From a virus, in the IMG/VR virus record IMGVR_UViG_3300035670_000574, positions 1-39,083 of that record: 39,083 nucleotides of DNA. One strand, given 5' to 3'. A model generated the notes under the pieces. It worked only from the letters and a program-made list of their open reading frames with translations, ran no database searches and was not told the DNA's origin. This document shows positions 3,940 through 37,507 of this stretch, piece by piece. A program made the position numbers and the translations under genes. Each line of letters opens with the position of its first letter. Position 1 is the first letter of the stretch.

Positions 3940-4205
3940 CTGAAATCTTGGAGAATTTTCAGGTCACGCACCATGCCAACAGGGATATGGATTGCGTGGA
4001 TTCCTTCACCTTTGCACAGGGTCTGCCAGAGTGTGACGTGCTGGTCTTTCGAGCCTGGTTCACCGACAGGGATGTGGAAGCCGACTGAGTTGACGATGCA
4101 CTCGCCGTCGTCGTCGTAGTCTTTGAGTTCGAGCCATCCGCCGTCAGACATGTGGGTGTCTGCCCATGTGACCATGACGATGGGGTAGCGGTTCCCTTGC
4201 TCCAT
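3936..4205 (-). CDS. Conserved phage hypothetical protein
   Basis: This 89-residue protein begins MEQGNRYPIVMVTWADTHM and contains GGWLELKDYDDDG and a C-terminal stretch with VTLWQTLCKGEGIHAIHIPVG. The pattern (YP-x-V-x-V-x-W-x-D, short acidic turn, then a Val-Gly-x-x-I-P segment) is seen in small proteins of many phages, with no established role. It is the last gene before the recombination promoter. Function unknown. Confidence 0.75.
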   Translation of the reverse strand: MEQGNRYPIVMVTWADTHMSDGGWLELKDYDDDGECIVNSVGFHIPVGEPGSKDQHVTLWQTLCKGEGIHAIHIPVGMVRDLKILQDFS

Positions 4206-25300: not shown

Positions 25301-27301
25301 CTGTTGGAATTCTTCCGCGGCAGCAAGTAACTTGCGTTGGTCACCTTTTGCGTTTCGCACTACACCTTTCATCCATGCGCTTTCCGACAAGGCTCGGAAC
25401 TTGCGATAATCGGGCATGACGTACATGTTGTCGATGAGTTGAACGACTGATTGTGGGTCGGCGAATTGCAGTCGTTCTAGTTCGTCTGGGCTGAATCTTT
25501 GAAGGAGGTTGTCTATCTGGTCTTGTGGCAGATAGTCCATGAGCATTTTGAAAGCGCCACCATCGGTAAGGTTTCCTGCTTCGTCCACGGCATATGCGCG
25601 AAGTTCGGCGATTTTTGCTTTTCCAAGGTCATAAGCGAGTTTGCTGACGTCCCTATCCCCGCCTGTTGCGAGCGAAATTGCCTGAACGAATCGTTCGTGG
25701 AGTTGTTCCATGCCGATTCGTCGTTCCGCTGCATCGGTGCGTGACAGGGTGTTGATTGCGTCGGCAATGAAGTTGTCGTAGGAGAGATTGTCAATTTCGT
25801 CGCGAAGTTCGCCGAGTTCTTTGAGGGTGTACTTTTTGCCTTTATATGTGACGGTGTCGCTACCTGCGGATAGCGCGCCTTTTCTCAAATCTTCAATAAC
25901 GCCGATTTCGTCTTGGACGGTGGTGCTTTTGTCCCAGCCAAGTCCTTTGAGGAACTTGTCGTAGTTGGTTGCTCCGCGGGTACGGTCAATGGAGGTGCCG
26001 TCAAGGATGATGGAGTCTGTTGGGATTTCTGATGCCCAACGGCTGTTGCGCCAGGTGCGGTAGAGGGGGACTCGTTCGCGGAGTGCTTGGGTCGCACCAA
26101 GTCCACGAATTTCTCCGAGTTGGGTGAGCGCAGTTCCCGATTCGTCGACACCGCTTGCTGCTGCAAGTGTGGCTTTGACTTTTAGTGGGTCGTCGGCGTC
26201 GGCGAAACGGAGTGCTGTTTCAAGGTCGATGGAACCTTCTGGGAAGTCTTGGAGGATTTTTGCTGCGATGCGTGCGCGTTCGCGTTGTGCGGCTGGTCCT
26301 ACCAGTTTTTTGTCTGTGATATTGCGTGTTGCTTCAGCGGCATAGCCAGAGATGCGTTCCGCCATTCGTGCGGCTTTGCTGTTTGAATCAAACCATGAAA
26401 AAAACTTGGAACCTTGGAAGGTTGCCATTTCTGCGGAGTTGAGTCCTGCTTCGCCTGATGCGATTTTTCTGGCGGCGTCAGCGACTTCTGCGGTTACGCG
26501 CTCAATTTTGTCGCTGGTAACGATGCCGCGTTCGGTAAGTTCGGTTGCAAGTTTCTGGGACAATGTCTTGGTTCCGACAAGACCTTTGACCTGTTCACCA
26601 GTCTTGGCTGCTTTGAACGCTTGACCGACGTACATGGTTGGGTCTGCATAGATTTGGACGGCTGCGTCAAGGAAGCCTGAGAGGATGGAGTATTCGCGGG
26701 AGCCTGGGGTGAAGACGAGGTCGGCTGCGCCGCGTCCGATGGTCCATGCGTGTCCGTTGATGGCGCCACGGAACTGGCGGGCTTTCTCAGCCTGAGCATC
26801 TGCGGCTTCGCCACCGAGAAAAAATCCGCGTCCAGCGTCCTTGCCTGATGCAAGTGCCCCAAGTTGGGTGGAGGCAAACCATCCGTCGACGCCTGCTGGG
26901 TCATTGCCTGAGAAAACTTGTGAGGCTGCGTTTTGTACGAGGTCTGGTGCGAATTGGAGCGCAGCGAAAGACCAGCGTGATGCAGCCTTGGCTTTGCCGT
27001 ACACGTTGCGAGCAAACCATGATTCTTTTGGTTGCTGGTTCGGCTGATTGTTTTTGACGTACTGGTTGGCGGCAATCTTGGAGACTGCGTCAATGGTTTG
27101 TGGTGAAGGGTTGCTTTTTGCGAGGTCAAGGATGACGCGCGCAGGAATGTATGGGCTGTTCTTGTAGATTTGTGCAGCAGCCTGCGCTTGCTGTGGGGTG
27201 ACAGTCTTGGAGAACTTGGCTTGTTCTTGGATGTTGTTTTGTGCGTCCCTGTCGTTTTGGTCTTGGTTTACAGGGTCAAACGCGGAGAGTCCACCGACCA
27301 T
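22361..27301 (-). CDS. Giant internal virion/ejection-type protein (1646 aa)
   Basis: At 1646 residues this is the largest gene of the window, one eighth of it. It opens MVGGLSAFDPVNQDQNDRDA and is almost wholly helical. Recognisable blocks are WFARNVYGKAKAASRWSFAA, ILSGFLDAAVQIYADPTMYV, WKPVILATGGYIVRNMIDSH (about residue 690), SWFFENLVGVAQQKLERSPL (about 1050), LRVLAPFATAFRETLGKYTQ (about 1185) and FVRKLILPYGEQGVSSLAPQ. The last blocks recur in giant proteins of marine and freshwater podoviruses. No transglycosylase or polymerase signature was found. The likely role is a capsid-internal protein ejected with the DNA. Confidence 0.72.
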   Translation of the reverse strand: MVGGLSAFDPVNQDQNDRDAQNNIQEQAKFSKTVTPQQAQAAAQIYKNSPYIPARVILDLAKSNPSPQTIDAVSKIAANQYVKNNQPNQQPKESWFARNVYGKAKAASRWSFAALQFAPDLVQNAASQVFSGNDPAGVDGWFASTQLGALASGKDAGRGFFLGGEAADAQAEKARQFRGAINGHAWTIGRGAADLVFTPGSREYSILSGFLDAAVQIYADPTMYVGQAFKAAKTGEQVKGLVGTKTLSQKLATELTERGIVTSDKIERVTAEVADAARKIASGEAGLNSAEMATFQGSKFFSWFDSNSKAARMAERISGYAAEATRNITDKKLVGPAAQRERARIAAKILQDFPEGSIDLETALRFADADDPLKVKATLAAASGVDESGTALTQLGEIRGLGATQALRERVPLYRTWRNSRWASEIPTDSIILDGTSIDRTRGATNYDKFLKGLGWDKSTTVQDEIGVIEDLRKGALSAGSDTVTYKGKKYTLKELGELRDEIDNLSYDNFIADAINTLSRTDAAERRIGMEQLHERFVQAISLATGGDRDVSKLAYDLGKAKIAELRAYAVDEAGNLTDGGAFKMLMDYLPQDQIDNLLQRFSPDELERLQFADPQSVVQLIDNMYVMPDYRKFRALSESAWMKGVVRNAKGDQRKLLAAAEEFQQEIWKPVILATGGYIVRNMIDSHIRIAAAGYQGFFSHPFQYLQAVMGKTFIGALTPGEGGQVRTFEDIGPEFGTRFRDDIVEQHKQASSATVYQWLQNPLSANEALWRNDNWMAVNRGVDPSAHTLGYVDNLGQLRADPIESRLALWWDLPASERRQNLVNWLNSDEGAPTKKIVLDHFKRGRRLQDPVSGRSVFATFDVTDDVALANWIDQNASARVARTLRAEGGAGAIDNDLRFIVAHDRVPLLVEVRDPRGVVIDVRVADQVSDLPIDDVKYAVGENQRGVGAAVTLDDGREAIITKVETRQVPDPFNPGQTVDREFVTAQPVAKGRAFTSKQNDAALLGTDAHREFINWKGAQNKLAQNITVAQRILPNKSKGLSRIYDAYNTGVSWFFENLVGVAQQKLERSPLWRQAFYKHVSENANLLAPSEQALLKSNIERYVQKLNDDLIADGKVDNITVQKYVGGEDIYNRIFGQVSNGDATVAQLESFGGRIASKEVQRILYNAHQKNNLEDMLRVLAPFATAFRETLGKYTQYLVEDPSRIRKTQLVFNAVNNNNQNPDDIGNGWFQKDEATGKHTFNVPLGGWIGPLLQFPVKGAFQVANLPGLGPVAQIAASEILPDTPRLDFVRKLILPYGEQGVSSLAPQWARRGIEAIRANTTDMSTVYGQTYGDVVKYLVQSGEYDMKDPNEVSKLYADARNKARVLAGLRALFQFAGPTSPQIDFRLETDGGDIIASAISQEFYKLQTNNRDTAVQEFIKKFGEDAFIYLSSKTESVAGGLEVSDAFGDWQRENSDLFNEYKDVAGYFAPSGDDFSFEVFNRQIKKGQRRRLTAPEIVEAAQYRLGMSIYRSKRAELGDKISREQRDWLAQWRTYLNQQYPGFPAKAQFNPGELDKFVGDLKRAVGDERLKDNDIAGAIRQYLDARDKAFAQAKVGGLSDLSSDRAQPLRDWLSSIANTLIQQTPEFSRIFEDKLAAEVD

Positions 27302-32328: not shown

Positions 32329-32357
32329 TTGACATTCTTCCCCCTGTCTGCTATAGT
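32329..32357 (+). promoter_or_regulatory. Main rightward promoter
   Basis: TTGACA (32329-32334) and TATAGT (32352-32357) are 17 nt apart, a near-consensus sigma70-type promoter and the best in the window. The leader of about 47 nt contains the small hairpin GGGGC-GAAAA-GCCCC (32376-32390) before the ATG at 32411. It is the first promoter of the plus-strand operon. Confidence 0.9.
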
Positions 32358-32410: not shown

Positions 32411-32608
32411 ATGACACGCAAGGACTATCAAGCGATAGCGGAGGTTATCGCTTACAGTGTTCGACGATGGGACACTGAGACCGAGGGGAACACTCCCCGC
32501 GAGGTTCGTCAAACTATCGAAGAAATCGCGAACGGAATAGCGGAGGTCTTCGACTGGGATAACCCGAGGTTCGACGCCGACAAGTTCTATCGGGCTTGCG
32601 GACTGTAG
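32411..32608 (+). CDS. First early gene, small hypothetical protein (65 aa)
   Basis: This 65-residue protein begins MTRKDYQAIAEVIAYSVRRW and has DWDNPRFDADKFYRACGL at the end. The helix and the NPRFD-x-x-KF-x-R-A motif are shared by short proteins of many phages and plasmids; function unknown. An AGGGG lies about 9 nt before the ATG. It is followed 7 nt after its TAG by structured element A. Confidence 0.8.
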   Translation: MTRKDYQAIAEVIAYSVRRWDTETEGNTPREVRQTIEEIANGIAEVFDWDNPRFDADKFYRACGL

Positions 32609-32615
32609 ACCCCGC

Positions 32616-32655
32616 GCCTCGCGCCTTGGGCGTGCCGATTCGATTCGGACGAGGC
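32616..32655 (+). ncRNA. Structured element A (three-way junction, stop-proximal)
   Basis: Starting 7 nt after the TAG of the first gene: outer stem GCCTCG (32616-32621)/CGAGGC (32650-32655), inner hairpin CGCC-TTG-GGCG (32622-32632), second hairpin CCGA-TTCGAT-TCGG (32635-32648), then A and the outer strand. The second hairpin carries a TTCGA loop as in tRNA T-arms. Followed by a promoter at 32667-32695. Folding was done by eye only. Confidence 0.5.
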
Positions 32656-32666
32656 ACTAGCAAGGC

Positions 32667-32695
32667 TTGACAGTGTTCTAGTCTTGTGATACAGT
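32667..32695 (+). promoter_or_regulatory. Second rightward promoter
   Basis: TTGACA (32667-32672) and TACAGT (32690-32695) are 17 nt apart. The sequence from the -10 on (TACAGTAAGACATACCAAC) recurs with few changes at 33676. It follows element A and precedes two zinc-ribbon genes. Confidence 0.8.
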
Positions 32696-32728
32696 AAGAC
32701 ATACCAACAACAACAGCAAGGGGAAACA

Positions 32729-32875
32729 ATGACAGTAATGACGCAATACCGCGCCCACTTTACGGGGGCTTGGGTCGCCCAGTGTCCGAATTGCGGAATC
32801 GTGGTTCCGTATTTCGACGAGGATGACCTGAACGAAAACGGCGAATTGACCTGCTACTGCGAGGAGGAAAAATAA
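32729..32875 (+). CDS. Small zinc-ribbon-like protein (48 aa)
   Basis: ATG at 32729 follows AAGGGG by about 7 nt. The 48-residue product begins MTVMTQYRAHFTGAWVAQCP, has CPNC near residue 19 and CYC near the end, with an acidic stretch (FDEDDLNENGE) between. The cysteines could hold a zinc ion. Its TAA overlaps the next ATG (TAATG). Function unknown; typical of early phage host-takeover peptides. Confidence 0.72.
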   Translation: MTVMTQYRAHFTGAWVAQCPNCGIVVPYFDEDDLNENGELTCYCEEEK

Positions 32876-33087
32876 TGTTCACCGATACAGCGCAAAAATA
32901 CCGAGACAAGTTCACTATCGGATTCACCTATCACGCGGACTGCTACTGCTACGACTGCGGAGCAGACTTGCCAGAGATAGACCCCGAGGGTAACGAAAAG
33001 CACCCCGTAGCCACTTGGGACAGAGCAGAGTGCCCAGACTGGACTTGTGGCAAGTGTGACGCACCGATAGACAACTGGGGCTACTGA
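32875..33087 (+). CDS. Small zinc-ribbon-like protein (70 aa)
   Basis: This 70-residue protein begins MFTDTAQKYRDKFTIGFTYH and has CYCYDC (about 24-29), then ECPDWTCGKCDAP (about 52-64), i.e. two cysteine pairs suitable for a zinc ribbon. It is acidic overall. Coupled by TAATG to the 48-residue gene, so the two may work together. The stop is followed 8 nt later by structured element B. Confidence 0.75.
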   Translation: MFTDTAQKYRDKFTIGFTYHADCYCYDCGADLPEIDPEGNEKHPVATWDRAECPDWTCGKCDAPIDNWGY

Positions 33088-33105
33088 CCCCAATACCCCT
33101 AGCCC
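33083..33105 (+). repeat. 23-nt direct repeat around a stop codon, copy 1
   Basis: These 23 nt (starting ACTGACCCCAATACCCC) are identical to 33593-33615. In both places the repeat begins 2 nt before the TGA stop of a gene and ends inside the first stem of a structured element. Such exact identity across an end-of-gene boundary indicates a duplicated functional unit. Confidence 0.9.
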
Positions 33106-33139
33106 GTATCGACGGCGTAGGTTCGTGACCTACTAGGGG
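33096..33139 (+). ncRNA. Structured element B (tRNA-like three-way junction)
   Basis: Starting 8 nt after a TGA: outer stem CCCCTAG (33096-33102)/CTAGGGG (33133-33139), inner hairpin CCGT-ATCG-ACGG (33104-33115), and GTAGG-TTCGTGA-CCTAC (33117-33133) with a 7-nt T-loop-like loop directly abutting the 3' outer strand, as the T-arm abuts the acceptor in tRNA. A small hairpin CGGAC-ACAA-GTCCG (33144-33157) follows, then a CAA-rich leader. Confidence 0.55.
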
Positions 33140-33181
33140 ACGACGGACACAAGTCCGCAACAACAACAAGGAGGGCAAAAA

Positions 33182-33412
33182 ATGGACATAGTGAAGAGGG
33201 GCGACACTTATGTTGTCGTCGTGAATCAGGACGAAATCGAGGACATTCGGCGCGCACTGTCGGTAGAACTGGACAGGAGAGAGACGGATTTCTGGAATGT
33301 GAACGAAATCAGAAGCACCGATAGCGTGACCGTCGAACGAATCCGTGAGAGGTATCTCAGGGCGGAGCGTAACTATGTGACGGTGTCGCAATCCATCAGG
33401 GGGAACAAATGA
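33182..33412 (+). CDS. Small early protein (76 aa)
   Basis: This 76-residue protein begins MDIVKRGDTYVVVVNQDEIE, then DIRRALSVELDRRETDFWNV and a final basic/acidic helix (VERIRERYLRAERNY). AAGGAGGG lies about 6 nt before the ATG at 33182, preceded by a CAACAACAACAA leader. The product looks like a strand-helix-helix fold. The stop overlaps the next ATG. Function unknown. Confidence 0.75.
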   Translation: MDIVKRGDTYVVVVNQDEIEDIRRALSVELDRRETDFWNVNEIRSTDSVTVERIRERYLRAERNYVTVSQSIRGNK

Positions 33413-33597
33413 AAGAGGAACACATTACGACGGGAGGAAACTACAAAACCACCGTCGAAATCATGCGAGCACTATCGCAACTCTTTCGGAACCTAGGCGA
33501 CATAGCAACGGCGAACAACTGGGAGATAGAGGCACTTGCGGAGGAGTCCCGTGGACGGTGGAAAGAGGTTTACTTCGACGGGAAGGTCATCAACTGA
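33409..33597 (+). CDS. Small early protein (62 aa)
   Basis: This 62-residue protein begins MKEEHITTGGNYKTTVEIMR and is mostly helical (ALSQLFRNLGDIATANNWEI), ending YFDGKVIN. It overlaps the previous gene by 4 nt (ATGA). Its TGA lies in the 23-nt repeat and is followed 8-9 nt later by structured element C. Function unknown. Confidence 0.72.
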   Translation: MKEEHITTGGNYKTTVEIMRALSQLFRNLGDIATANNWEIEALAEESRGRWKEVYFDGKVIN

Positions 33598-33615
33598 CCC
33601 CAATACCCCTAGCCC
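33593..33615 (+). repeat. 23-nt direct repeat around a stop codon, copy 2
   Basis: Identical to 33083-33105. Beyond the repeat the two loci differ, but the differing sequence still folds into the same outer-stem-plus-two-hairpins plan, so the conserved part is the stop region and the 5' strand of the outer stem. Confidence 0.9.
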
Positions 33616-33652
33616 ACCGTAGGGTGGCACAAGCGTCAAGGCTTGACTAGGG
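33606..33652 (+). ncRNA. Structured element C (three-way junction)
   Basis: Outer stem CCCTAG (33607-33612)/CTAGGG (33647-33652), inner hairpin CCACC-GTAG-GGTGG (33614-33627), second hairpin CAAGC-GTCAAG-GCTTG (33630-33645) followed by one A. Same topology as element B but with different stem sequences that remain paired, i.e. compensating changes. The loop of the second hairpin is not TTCG here. A possible -35 (TTGACT, 33643) lies inside the structure. Confidence 0.55.
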
Positions 33653-33675
33653 ACGATACATACGCTAGTGTGTAT

Positions 33676-33699
33676 TACAGTTAGACATATCAACTACAA
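33676..33699 (+). promoter_or_regulatory. Partly conserved promoter block, third in the operon
   Basis: TACAGTTAGACATATCAAC here matches 32690 on at nearly every base, so a -10 element is likely. The best -35 (TTGACT at 33643-33648) is 27 nt away, too far; a weaker GATACA is 15 nt away. It may be a degenerate or activator-dependent promoter for the ArdA-like gene at 33712. Confidence 0.4.
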
Positions 33700-33711
33700 G
33701 AAGGGATAGCA

Positions 33712-34053
33712 ATGGAAACACAAGAGCAAGAGCAGACCTACACCTACGAGGGCTACCTACTGGAGCACTTCTACGGTGAGGGCGACCCTATGGAGGCGTT
33801 CGGGGTGTACCTCGACAACTTCCACAAGAAGGACGCACAACTCACCGAGGACGAATGGTCGGGACACTTCTCAGATTTCGAGGAGGCATACATCGGGGAG
33901 ATGACGGTCAAGGAATACGCCGAACAACTTGCCGAAGAGAACTATCCCGAGGCGGTCAAGTGTAAGTATTTCGACTACGACGCCTACGCGAACGACTTAG
34001 AGCGTGGTGGCGAGGTATGGGAAACCGACGGACACTTGTTCCGCAGTTACTAA
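33712..34053 (+). CDS. ArdA-like antirestriction protein
   Basis: This 113-residue, strongly acidic protein begins METQEQEQTYTYEGYLLEHF. The C-terminal half has DEWSGHFSDFEEAYIGEMTV, KEYAEQLAEENYPE and YFDYDAYANDLERGGEVWET followed by DGHLFRSY; the F-x-D-x-E-A-Y-x-G and YFDY-x-A-[YF]-A-x-D-L motifs are those of ArdA. ArdA mimics bent B-DNA and blocks type I restriction enzymes soon after DNA entry. It is shorter than the usual ArdA (about 165 residues): the N-terminal domain is mostly missing. AAGGGA precedes the ATG. Confidence 0.82.
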   Translation: METQEQEQTYTYEGYLLEHFYGEGDPMEAFGVYLDNFHKKDAQLTEDEWSGHFSDFEEAYIGEMTVKEYAEQLAEENYPEAVKCKYFDYDAYANDLERGGEVWETDGHLFRSY

Positions 34054-34084
34054 CAACAACACAACACAGAAGGGAAACAACAAC

Positions 34085-34393
34085 ATGAACACGCAAGAAC
34101 AAGAGCAGACAGTCTCAGTATGGGACTATCTCGAACGAGAGAACACGAAAGCACCGCAAGCCGAGGCACTCTATCGTTGGGGTCTCAACTGCGACCGATA
34201 CAACAACCCGTTTCTTCTCTATCTCGACCTCATTGGATGGAGTGACGACAACTACGGGGCGAACGTCGGACAGCACACGCGACAGGGATACATGGAGGCG
34301 GACTATCTCGCCGACGCCCTCAAAGAATGGGCAGTGAACCCTCACGCCGTGGAGAACTGGCTTGACGACCTCATGGAAACGGAAGGGGTCTAA
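34085..34393 (+). CDS. Acidic early protein (102 aa), possible DNA mimic
   Basis: This 102-residue protein begins MNTQEQEQTVSVWDYLEREN, so it shares its first residues (TQEQEQT) with the ArdA-like protein just upstream. Other parts are FLLYLDLIGWSDDNYGANVG, YMEADYLADALKEWAVNPHA and NWLDDLMETEGV. It is rich in Asp and Glu with few Lys. The shared start suggests duplication of the translation-start region or a common signal. Function unknown; partner antirestriction protein is a guess. Confidence 0.75.
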   Translation: MNTQEQEQTVSVWDYLERENTKAPQAEALYRWGLNCDRYNNPFLLYLDLIGWSDDNYGANVGQHTRQGYMEADYLADALKEWAVNPHAVENWLDDLMETEGV

Positions 34394-34395
34394 CC

Positions 34396-34650
34396 GTGAA
34401 CCTTGACACAATGGAACACGCCTATCTTCTCTACGGGCTACAAGAGGGCGACTACCTTGTCCTCGACTGTCTGCCCACAGGGTCGCACCTCACGGCAGGA
34501 GAATTAGAGAACACGCACGCCATATGCGATATCTCGCATTGGACACAGGACGACCTCGACGAGTTCGCAGAGATGGGGACGGGCAACCAGTACGCCATCG
34601 TCGAACAGTTAGAACTGGCAGTATTCGCACAAGAAATGAAAGGAAACTAA
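34396..34650 (+). CDS. Acidic early protein (84 aa)
   Basis: A GTG at 34396 (or ATG at 34411) starts an 84-residue acidic protein: MNLDTMEHAYLLYGLQEGDY, LVLDCLPTGSHLTAGELENT, DISHWTQDDLDEFAEMGTGN. It has no lysine until the last three residues (KGN). This fits the strongly acidic character of the block. It may be another DNA-mimic type inhibitor. Function unknown. Confidence 0.68.
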   Translation: MNLDTMEHAYLLYGLQEGDYLVLDCLPTGSHLTAGELENTHAICDISHWTQDDLDEFAEMGTGNQYAIVEQLELAVFAQEMKGN

Positions 34651-34652
34651 AC

Positions 34653-34895
34653 ATGAGATACGCAGTACGCGCCGACCTAATCGCACAAGACCTAGCAATC
34701 CCTGACGCAAGACGTGACGAGCACTACACCGACGACTACGTTCGAGGTCTCACGTTCATCGCATGGGTAGATGACAGCACCTATGAAGATGACGAGGACG
34801 GGACGGTCGCCAAATTCCACAACGCCGAAGGCGACGAGGTCTATCTGTACAGCATTGACCTTGACTACATCAACGAAGGAAAACAACAGCAATGA
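34653..34895 (+). CDS. Acidic early protein (80 aa)
   Basis: ATG at 34653 follows AAAGGAAA by about 6 nt. The 80-residue product begins MRYAVRADLIAQDLAIPDAR, then has FIAWVDDSTYEDDEDGTVAK and DEVYLYSIDLDYINEGKQQQ. About a quarter of the residues are Asp or Glu. Its stop overlaps the next ATG. Function unknown. Confidence 0.7.
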   Translation: MRYAVRADLIAQDLAIPDARRDEHYTDDYVRGLTFIAWVDDSTYEDDEDGTVAKFHNAEGDEVYLYSIDLDYINEGKQQQ

Positions 34896-35104
34896 CAACC
34901 ACAGCACAAGAACTGTCAGCCAACATCGGCAAGACCGCGACACTCAAAGTCGCAGGAACAAGCCTCGCGTTTGAGGTGACGGTCATGGACGCACGGAAAC
35001 GTTACGGCAACCTCGACTACAAGGTGAAGCCCGTGGCAGGTGAGGGTGAGGCGTGGCATCAGTCCACCGCACTCAGTTTTTCGCAGGTTGAGGAGACCCA
35101 ATGA
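34892..35104 (+). CDS. Small early protein (70 aa)
   Basis: This 70-residue protein begins MTTTAQELSANIGKTATLKV and reads AFEVTVMDARKRYGNLDYKV, then ALSFSQVEETQ. Alternating hydrophobic positions suggest a small beta-barrel, possibly SH3- or OB-like. It overlaps its neighbour by 4 nt (ATGA). Function unknown. Confidence 0.68.
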   Translation: MTTTAQELSANIGKTATLKVAGTSLAFEVTVMDARKRYGNLDYKVKPVAGEGEAWHQSTALSFSQVEETQ

Positions 35105-35115
35105 AATCGGGGTAC

Positions 35116-35144
35116 TTGACAAACGAACAAAAGTGTGATACACT
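35116..35144 (+). promoter_or_regulatory. Fourth rightward promoter
   Basis: TTGACA (35116-35121) and TACACT (35139-35144) are 17 nt apart, with AGTGTGA before the -10 as at 32667-32695. It lies just after the stop at 35104 and inside the alternative N-terminus of the next gene. Confidence 0.75.
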
Positions 35145-35184
35145 TGTATCTGTAGGCAACGAGAAGGGGAGAGGAGGTGAGGAG

Positions 35185-35370
35185 ATGGGAACTACCAAAA
35201 CATTTTGGGGCTGTCCAAAATGCAAGCGGGAGTTCACCGAGGGCATAACCCCACACCATGTGCGGACATTCATGGACCTGTCAAGTCCGAAGGTCTTTGA
35301 GAGTCCGTGCGATGGAAGCGGGGAAAAGACTGTCAGAATTGACAGGCAGACCCGAAGGCGACTCAAGTAA
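35185..35370 (+). CDS. Small zinc-ribbon-like protein (61 aa), possible dual start
   Basis: ATG at 35185 is chosen because AGGAGGTGA lies 4 nt before it and the promoter at 35116-35144 would start RNA near 35151. The product begins MGTTKTFWGCPKCKREFTEG, with CPKC and a later CDGSGEK. An in-frame ATG at 35101 (28 residues longer, overlapping the previous stop as ATGA and with GAGGAG upstream) is also plausible, giving an 89-residue form. The C-terminus is basic. Function unknown. Confidence 0.68.
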   Translation: MGTTKTFWGCPKCKREFTEGITPHHVRTFMDLSSPKVFESPCDGSGEKTVRIDRQTRRRLK

Positions 35371-35378
35371 CACAGGTC

Positions 35379-35418
35379 GGGTGACTGGCAGACATCGGGG
35401 TTCGAGTCCCCGACACCC
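35379..35418 (+). ncRNA. Structured element D: orphan tRNA T-arm/acceptor-like minihelix
   Basis: Eight nt after a TAA: outer stem GGGTG (35379-35383)/CACCC (35414-35418), an 11-nt stretch, then a perfect tRNA T-arm CGGGG-TTCGAGT-CCCCG (35396-35412) one nt from the 3' outer strand. No D-arm, anticodon arm or CCA is present, and no matching 7-nt acceptor 5' strand lies at tRNA distance. A GNRA-type hairpin GGTC-GCAA-GACC (35423-35434) follows. It could be a tRNA remnant, an att-like tRNA 3' end, or an RNase P/Z substrate. Confidence 0.6.
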
Positions 35419-35464
35419 ACAAGGTCGCAAGACCGACACACAACCAACCAGAAAGGGGACAGCA

Positions 35465-37415: not shown

Positions 37416-37440
37416 CATTTTGATAGGCTGGTTGTTTGAG

Positions 37441-37488
37441 TAGCCCTGCTCCCGAAGTCCCCCCTTCGCTTCGGTCGTAGCGGGGCTA
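37441..37488 (+). terminator. Terminator between convergent operons
   Basis: TAGCCCTGCT (37441-37450) pairs with AGCGGGGCTA (37479-37488) with one G.U, enclosing a second stem CCGAAG (37452-37457)/CTTCGG (37469-37474). Only a weak T-rich tail (TTCGCTTTC) follows on the plus strand and none on the minus. It separates the rightward operon from the leftward PAPS-reductase-like gene. Confidence 0.75.
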
Positions 37489-37507
37489 TTCGCTTTCTCG
37501 GGTTAGG

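Follow-up and report, generated by a model that had tools for sequence, protein, structure and literature searches.

The subject of this study is a stretch of viral DNA of 39,083 bp (IMG/VR virus record IMGVR_UViG_3300035670_000574; the whole stretch is called the window below) and, in particular, four structured elements, E1 to E4, that lie between small genes near its right end. Structural genes, recognized by portal and terminase matches, occupy the left three quarters of the window on the minus strand, and towards the right end small genes on the plus strand form an early operon. All four elements lie on the plus strand, and each stands a few nucleotides past the stop codon of a small open reading frame (ORF). 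E1 (32616..32657) is 7 nt past the TAG of the gene at 32411..32608, which has relatives in loci L117, L014, L084 and L104; E2 (33096..33141) is 8 nt past the TGA of the gene at 32875..33087; E3 (33607..33654) is 9 nt past the TGA of the gene at 33409..33597; and E4 (35379..35420) is 8 nt past the TAA of the gene at 35101..35370. E4 belongs to a family of small RNA folds resembling transfer RNA (tRNA), the type I mini-tRNAs, of whose structure and distribution we are virtually certain.

An initial annotation of this DNA, made from the letters alone, had proposed the four elements, and rechecking the letters showed all four to be present with coordinates good to within 1 nt. The bounds given for E1, E2 and E4 stand; E3, however, starts at 33607 rather than 33606, the extra C being unpaired. 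The distance of 7-9 nt from the stop codons, the inner hairpin in three elements (present in E1-E3, absent from E4), the TTCG loops (TTCGAT in E1, TTCGTGA in E2 and TTCGAGT in E4) and the single perfect T-arm, that of E4, are also as first described. We part from that description where it gave all four elements one form: there are two classes instead, E4 being a mini-tRNA and E1-E3 three-way junctions. A single family was considered and rejected, as model R1 finds only E4 in the window at E<10 and model R2 is limited to one lineage. Folding of the single sequences is unimpressive (z of -0.28 for E1, -1.67 for E2, -2.62 for E3 and -0.92 for E4), and the predicted minimum fold of E4 differs from the conserved fold. 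Since single-sequence folding is weak evidence, the case made here rests on comparison.

Anatomy and covariation of the type I mini-tRNA

The assignment of E4 to type I draws on its identity with a stretch of Streptomyces phage Godpower, on a score of 69.8 bits with model R1 and on covariation. From 5' to 3' the element consists of an outer stem (35379-35383/35414-35418), a D-loop-like linker ACTGGCAGACA (35384-35394), a T-stem (35395-35400/35408-35413) enclosing the T-loop TTCGAGT (35401-35407) and an A-C tail (35419-35420). A second hairpin, GGTC-GCAA-GACC, follows directly on the 3' side (35423..35434, plus strand), and across the family a second hairpin with a stem of at least 5 bp stands 3' of 233/357 mini-tRNAs, compared with 76/357 in shuffled sequence. 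The family plan is a 5-bp outer stem, an 11-nt linker AnYGGCAnACA, a 6-bp T-stem, a T-loop of 7 nt (UUCRAGU), then with no gap the 3' strand of the outer stem, and last a purine followed by C (R-C). A flexible scan gave a coaxial stack of 11 bp in 315 copies and of 12 bp in 38, with none in the control, and the total stays constant though the split between the stems varies (5+6, 6+6, 4+7 and, in two copies, 7+5). R-C adjoins the stack in 313 of the 315 copies with 11 bp. The first pair of the outer stem is G-C in 338/357 copies and the last pair of the T-stem is G-C in all 357; the T-loop columns are U23 (366/372), U/G24 (364/372), C25 (364/372), R26 (368/372) and A27 (357/372). Variant mini-tRNAs were seen in Konstantine (L004, 18354-18410, 15088-15128 and 15847-15887) and in Godpower (L003, 12462-12509); they include a hairpin within the linker in Konstantine, stacks of 4+8 bp and, in Godpower, an enlarged D-loop with a TGC T-loop.

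Covariation was assessed in an alignment (A1) of 25 type I copies chosen with pairing in mind. All 264 of 264 cells are paired and 10 of the 11 pairs have changed on both sides, an outcome reached by 0 of 500 shuffles. Because the selection of A1 favoured pairing, two unbiased tests were added. When copies were chosen only by the sequence of loop and linker, through a pattern scan of IMG/VR, the outer stem was fully Watson-Crick in 190 of 206 distinct copies and had one G-U in 13 more. When copies were chosen only by pairing, with the loops left free, 1.34 Mb of loci yielded 372 distinct copies and a Markov control 8; linker GG and loop UUCRA occur together in 338 of these 372, so that the loops are conserved though unselected. 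The stems are almost purely Watson-Crick, and both covary throughout.

In the elbow of tRNA, G18 meets U55 and G19 pairs with C56 (PMC7912444). The type I equivalent of G18-U55 (columns 9 and 24) swaps as a pair, with G/U in 342 copies, A/G in 15 and mixed combinations in none (n=357), and the 15 A18-G55 copies, spread over 13 loci, have 7 distinct outer stems and 13 distinct T-stems. The outer elbow pair is nearly invariant: the residue corresponding to G19 (G10) is kept in 361/372 copies and that corresponding to C56 (C25) in 364/372. Linker position 2 also covaries with position 8 (C-G 191, G-C 76, A-U 64, U-A 3 and four others), and the two form a one-pair D-stem around YGGCA. As read from sequence comparison, then, type I is the acceptor/T-arm stack of tRNA with its D-loop/T-loop elbow and without the anticodon arm. 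GC-rich stem-loops past stop codons might suggest intrinsic terminators, but no U-run comes next, a terminator scan picks up 0 of the 4 elements in the window, and conserved loops and a tertiary pair would go unexplained; we find this reading barely plausible.

With tRNA (RF00005) the mini-tRNA shares the coaxial acceptor/T-arm stack, the D-loop GG contacting the T-loop, the purine and C past the acceptor stem, and a perfect T-arm in which the pair G53-C61 closes a 7-nt UUCRANY loop. It differs in being 40 nt long, without a variable loop, with a D-stem of one pair, mostly 5+6 = 11 bp rather than 7+5 = 12 bp in the stack, and no CCA; instead of an anticodon arm and a cloverleaf there is only the 11-nt linker. 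The tRNA-like domain of transfer-messenger RNA (tmRNA) likewise has an acceptor stem, a D-loop without a true D-stem, a T-arm and no anticodon. All of these are common to the mini-tRNA, which, however, has neither a tag frame nor the long helix between D-loop and T-arm, and is located in mRNA past stop codons. Plant RNA viruses carry a single tRNA-like structure at the 3' end of the genome, in many cases aminoacylated and pseudoknotted in the acceptor; viral mimicry of tRNA is the shared feature, whereas the mini-tRNA has an ordinary stem and, in the mRNA of DNA phages, occurs internally and in many copies. Such genuine elbow mimicry would also suit an RNA that lures away tRNA-binding enzymes of the host or defence nucleases directed at tRNA, yet a decoy or sponge of this kind would not need strict placement at gene ends and anticodon nucleases would have no anticodon arm to attack. 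We hold this role to be highly improbable.

Searches against known families gave no relative. Rfam 15 returned no match at the gathering threshold over the window, nothing relevant at E<=10 in the window and the Godpower locus, and no match at E<=1 for the elements in L005, L143 and L155. ARAGORN called 0 genes and no tmRNA at the elements, and neither ARAGORN nor Rfam found a tmRNA tag reading frame or long helix. The annotations of the phage regions that we examined contain no such element. We could not find the type I family described in a full-text search of the literature on phage tRNA-like and intergenic elements, a search whose coverage was incomplete, so that an older description is possible; the family seems hitherto undescribed.

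Distribution and placement of type I

When the right 11 kb of the window was compared by megablast with all public phages, the sole match was 42 nt of E4, with 97.6% identity over 42 nt to an unannotated intergenic stretch of Godpower. A sensitive search gave 610 places in 154 phage records, mostly of Streptomyces and Mycobacterium phages with some Gordonia phages, and among the matches listed in those phages all are intergenic except in phage LittleE. Counting variants, there are 7 copies in Godpower, 8 in Konstantine and 15 in Papyrus. In these three annotated phages an element is present in 25 of the 30 early-region gaps between genes that measure 70 nt or more, with a median of 9 nt from stop codon to element and 44.5 nt from element to next gene; some copies are 35-134 nt from the stop codon. 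In the Papyrus genome (L005), the 1.2-kb interval that separates genes 68 and 69 also holds a full-length GOLLD RNA (25838-26297; Rfam RF02032, 190 bits).

All annotated copies are in gene-sense orientation. Repeated, sequence-similar intergenic units could in principle be a feature of the DNA itself, such as a remnant of attP, a mobile repeat or an inverted-repeat operator. Uniform gene-sense orientation speaks against this, as do compensatory changes at nearly every pair, covariation of the loop-loop tertiary contact and the independent stems of the many copies that a genome carries; the likelihood of such an origin is close to negligible. Remnants of tRNA genes at attP and mobile repeats were rejected as candidates on the grounds of gene-sense placement and compensatory changes.

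In the larger set of copies, 172/357 lie 6-10 nt and 78/357 lie 11-20 nt after a stop codon of the same sense, the corresponding numbers for random positions being 10 and 16. The initial claim that the elements are tRNA-like, selected for structure and punctuate the early operon is thus strongly supported, both by massive covariation and by similar structures 3' of stop codons in relatives.

Placement next to stop codons would also be expected if the elements were left uncleaved and controlled stability or decay, the elbow-locked fold blocking 3'-5' exonucleases past the stop codons, 5'-scanning RNases, or both, to give protection gene by gene. The strong, near-purely Watson-Crick stems and the frequent second hairpin fit such a role. 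For this purpose, however, a plain hairpin would suffice, and the invariant T-loop and GG, the stack of 11-12 bp and the R-C would be left unexplained; we regard stability control as unlikely. The tight spacing (the medians given above) brings up another alternative, in which a ribosome stopped about 9 nt on the 5' side would be engaged by the elbow mimic, whether at its L1 stalk, at a tRNA site or through one of its recycling or termination factors. Contacts between tRNA and ribosome use elbow residues, and the residues conserved in the mini-tRNA are those. Against this stand the copies 35-134 nt from a stop codon, those just 5' of a MuA-like early gene in Mu-like prophages of Bacteroidota and the lack of any anticodon-like part. 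We consider a ribosome-linked function decidedly unlikely, and equally so its supposed outcome, the promotion of recycling or of re-initiation at the following gene, which starts about 45 nt farther on.

On bacterial contigs, copies were found in Actinobacteria, in Bacteroidota, where they lie beside MuA/MuB-like prophage genes, and in one metagenome-assembled genome of Gemmatimonadota. Type I variants also occur in Streptococcus phage EJ-1 and in a Riemerella phage. The EJ-1 variant (L154, about 4001-4052) has a 10-nt linker and overlaps the stop codon of an early gene; matches resembling it were seen in about 30 streptococcal phages, and the pneumococcal phage variant was not found when sought in plasmids. 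Run over 198 sampled Bacteroidota genomes, R1 matched only the Mu-like prophage genome that had been used as centre, from which we conclude that type I is rare outside phages and that R1 is specific. Restriction to early operons and the many copies per genome would accord with an RNA site for a phage-encoded regulator, one that acts on the early operon by antitermination, by processive regulation or by autoregulation. It is difficult to reconcile this with the same fold in phages of several bacterial phyla, among which no shared early gene was noticed, although no systematic search for one was made, or with the identity of the conserved letters, which match the elbow of host tRNA. We judge such a regulator to be improbable.

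The type II elements of the window

E1, E2 and E3 constitute, as judged by comparison with their homologues, a second and lineage-limited class. In the type II plan an outer stem (6-7 bp) encloses an inner hairpin and a 3' T-loop-like arm; between this arm and the closing outer strand there is mostly a single unpaired A, and the tail is A-C in most cases. E1 has the outer stem GCCTCG/CGAGGC, the hairpin CGCC-TTG-GGCG, the arm CCGA-TTCGAT-TCGG, the A and A-C; it is supported by an alignment (A2) of 13 homologous sequences and by model R2. E2, with homologues in L129 and L126, has the outer stem CCCCTAG/CTAGGGG, the hairpin CCG-tatcga-CGG, a 3' arm with the loop TTCGTGA, and A-C, and a hairpin CGGAC-ACAA-GTCCG lies on its 3' side (33144..33157, plus strand); in the L126 homologue the outer stem is now CCCCTCG/CGAGGGG. 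E3 has the outer stem CCCTAG/CTAGGG, the hairpin CCACC-GTAG-GGTGG, the 3' arm CAAGC-GTCAAG-GCTTG, the A and A-C, and is backed by homologues in L117 and L126-L132, those in L127 and L128 having the outer stem CCCCAG/CTGGGG, as well as by its folding score.

In A2, 95.5% of cells are paired and 8 pairs have double changes, and the covariation score was matched by 0 of 500 shuffles; the loop of the 3' arm is UUCRAU in 12 of the 13 rows and UUCGAA in one. The outer stem of the E2/E3-like sequences shows double changes in 3 of 6 pairs and no broken cells. A scan for three-way junctions that did not use homology was not clearly above its random control, and E1-E3 are for this reason argued from homologues and covariation. 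Homologues occupy the same place in the relatives L117, L126-L131, L014, L016, L034, L046, L078, L084 and L120. Among the 45 loci tested, R2 matched the lineage of the window only, and E3 weakly (17 bits). Both types occur in the same operon in the window, L117 and L084. On the minus strand of L084 long second hairpins were seen 3' of type II elements (about 11600-11570 and 11260-11220); they share the frame ACAAGGT...GACCGA, and their stem sequence is not conserved.

Sites resembling sigma-70 promoters (TTGACA, 17 nt, then TATAGT, TACAGT or TACACT) lie at 32329-32357, 32667-32695 and 35116-35144, the total of such sites in the window being not clearly above that in shuffles. The one at 32667-32695 is directly past E1, and some gene blocks may thus have a promoter of their own. 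There is a structured element GAGTAGCC...GGCTATTC (37438-37490) on the 3' side of the last plus-strand gene; L117 and L126-L131 have conserved it, and it resembles a terminator placed where genes converge.

Processing by host RNase P as a possible function

The initial annotation offered processing sites, 3'-end protectors or ribosome-linked signals as possible functions; what the type I fold retains and what it discards leads us to favor the first of these, processing: it keeps the elbow, a near-tRNA stack and the R-C, drops the decoding parts and sits between the genes of an operon. With confidence just short of even, and going by sequence features, we suggest that host ribonuclease P (RNase P) processes the early mRNA at the mini-tRNAs. 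We extend this, a shade more tentatively, to the proposal that elbow-bearing, anticodon-less mini-tRNAs in double-stranded DNA phages of several phyla may be punctuation within mRNA for host RNase P and RNase Z. Once transcribed, the mini-tRNA would fold within the mRNA and be mistaken by host RNase P for a precursor tRNA, the enzyme touching the elbow (G19-C56), gauging the stack and holding the R-C tail. Were the enzyme to cut at the 5' boundary of the outer stem, the upstream message would be left with about 9 nt beyond its stop codon, and the downstream message would begin with a structure; RNase Z, by cutting again past the discriminator purine, could release an RNA of about 41 nt. The early operon would in this way be split into units that decay separately, as in mitochondrial tRNA punctuation. 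E1-E3 might do the same job with another architecture, having kept the 3' T-loop-like arm, a similar stack length and the A-C tail.

In mitochondria, tRNA structures between genes direct the cutting of polycistronic RNA. Those are full, functional tRNAs, whereas the phage element is an anticodon-less mini-tRNA at which cleavage is only inferred. Host RNase P cleaves phage M3 RNA, phage C4 RNA and T4 gene 32 mRNA (PMC11143913), which are thus phage transcripts cut by the enzyme that our proposal invokes, but they are isolated cases rather than a conserved, repeated element bearing an elbow. The tRNA-like structure of turnip yellow mosaic virus appears as an RNase P substrate in the reference list of the same paper (PMC11143913).

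Among the features of an RNase P substrate, the elbow and R-C are present in the mini-tRNA, the stack is 11-12 bp and CCA is absent. Several details weigh against processing. The stack is usually 11 bp, one short of the 12 (7+5) of tRNA. R-C alone is conserved, not RCCA, and the base that follows is mostly T or G. The base 5' of the stem is mostly A and stands opposite an A (A-A in 241/357), and because A faces A across the base of the stem the exact cut site is not obvious. Finally, the loops of type II depart from the canonical T-loop (GTCAAG in E3).

The mini-tRNA is present, apparently unnoticed, in laboratory phages, namely Papyrus- and Konstantine-like mycobacteriophages and the Streptomyces Likavirus. 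If processing by RNase P is correct, phages have cut tRNA down to elbow and acceptor as a generic signal to cut here, or to hold here, and the mini-tRNA would offer RNase P, or some other factor that reads the elbow, a minimal substrate of natural origin. It would then be relevant to the way in which phages tune the expression of their early polycistronic operons, to the question of which features tRNA-processing enzymes recognize in cells and to the minimum size of a working tRNA mimic.

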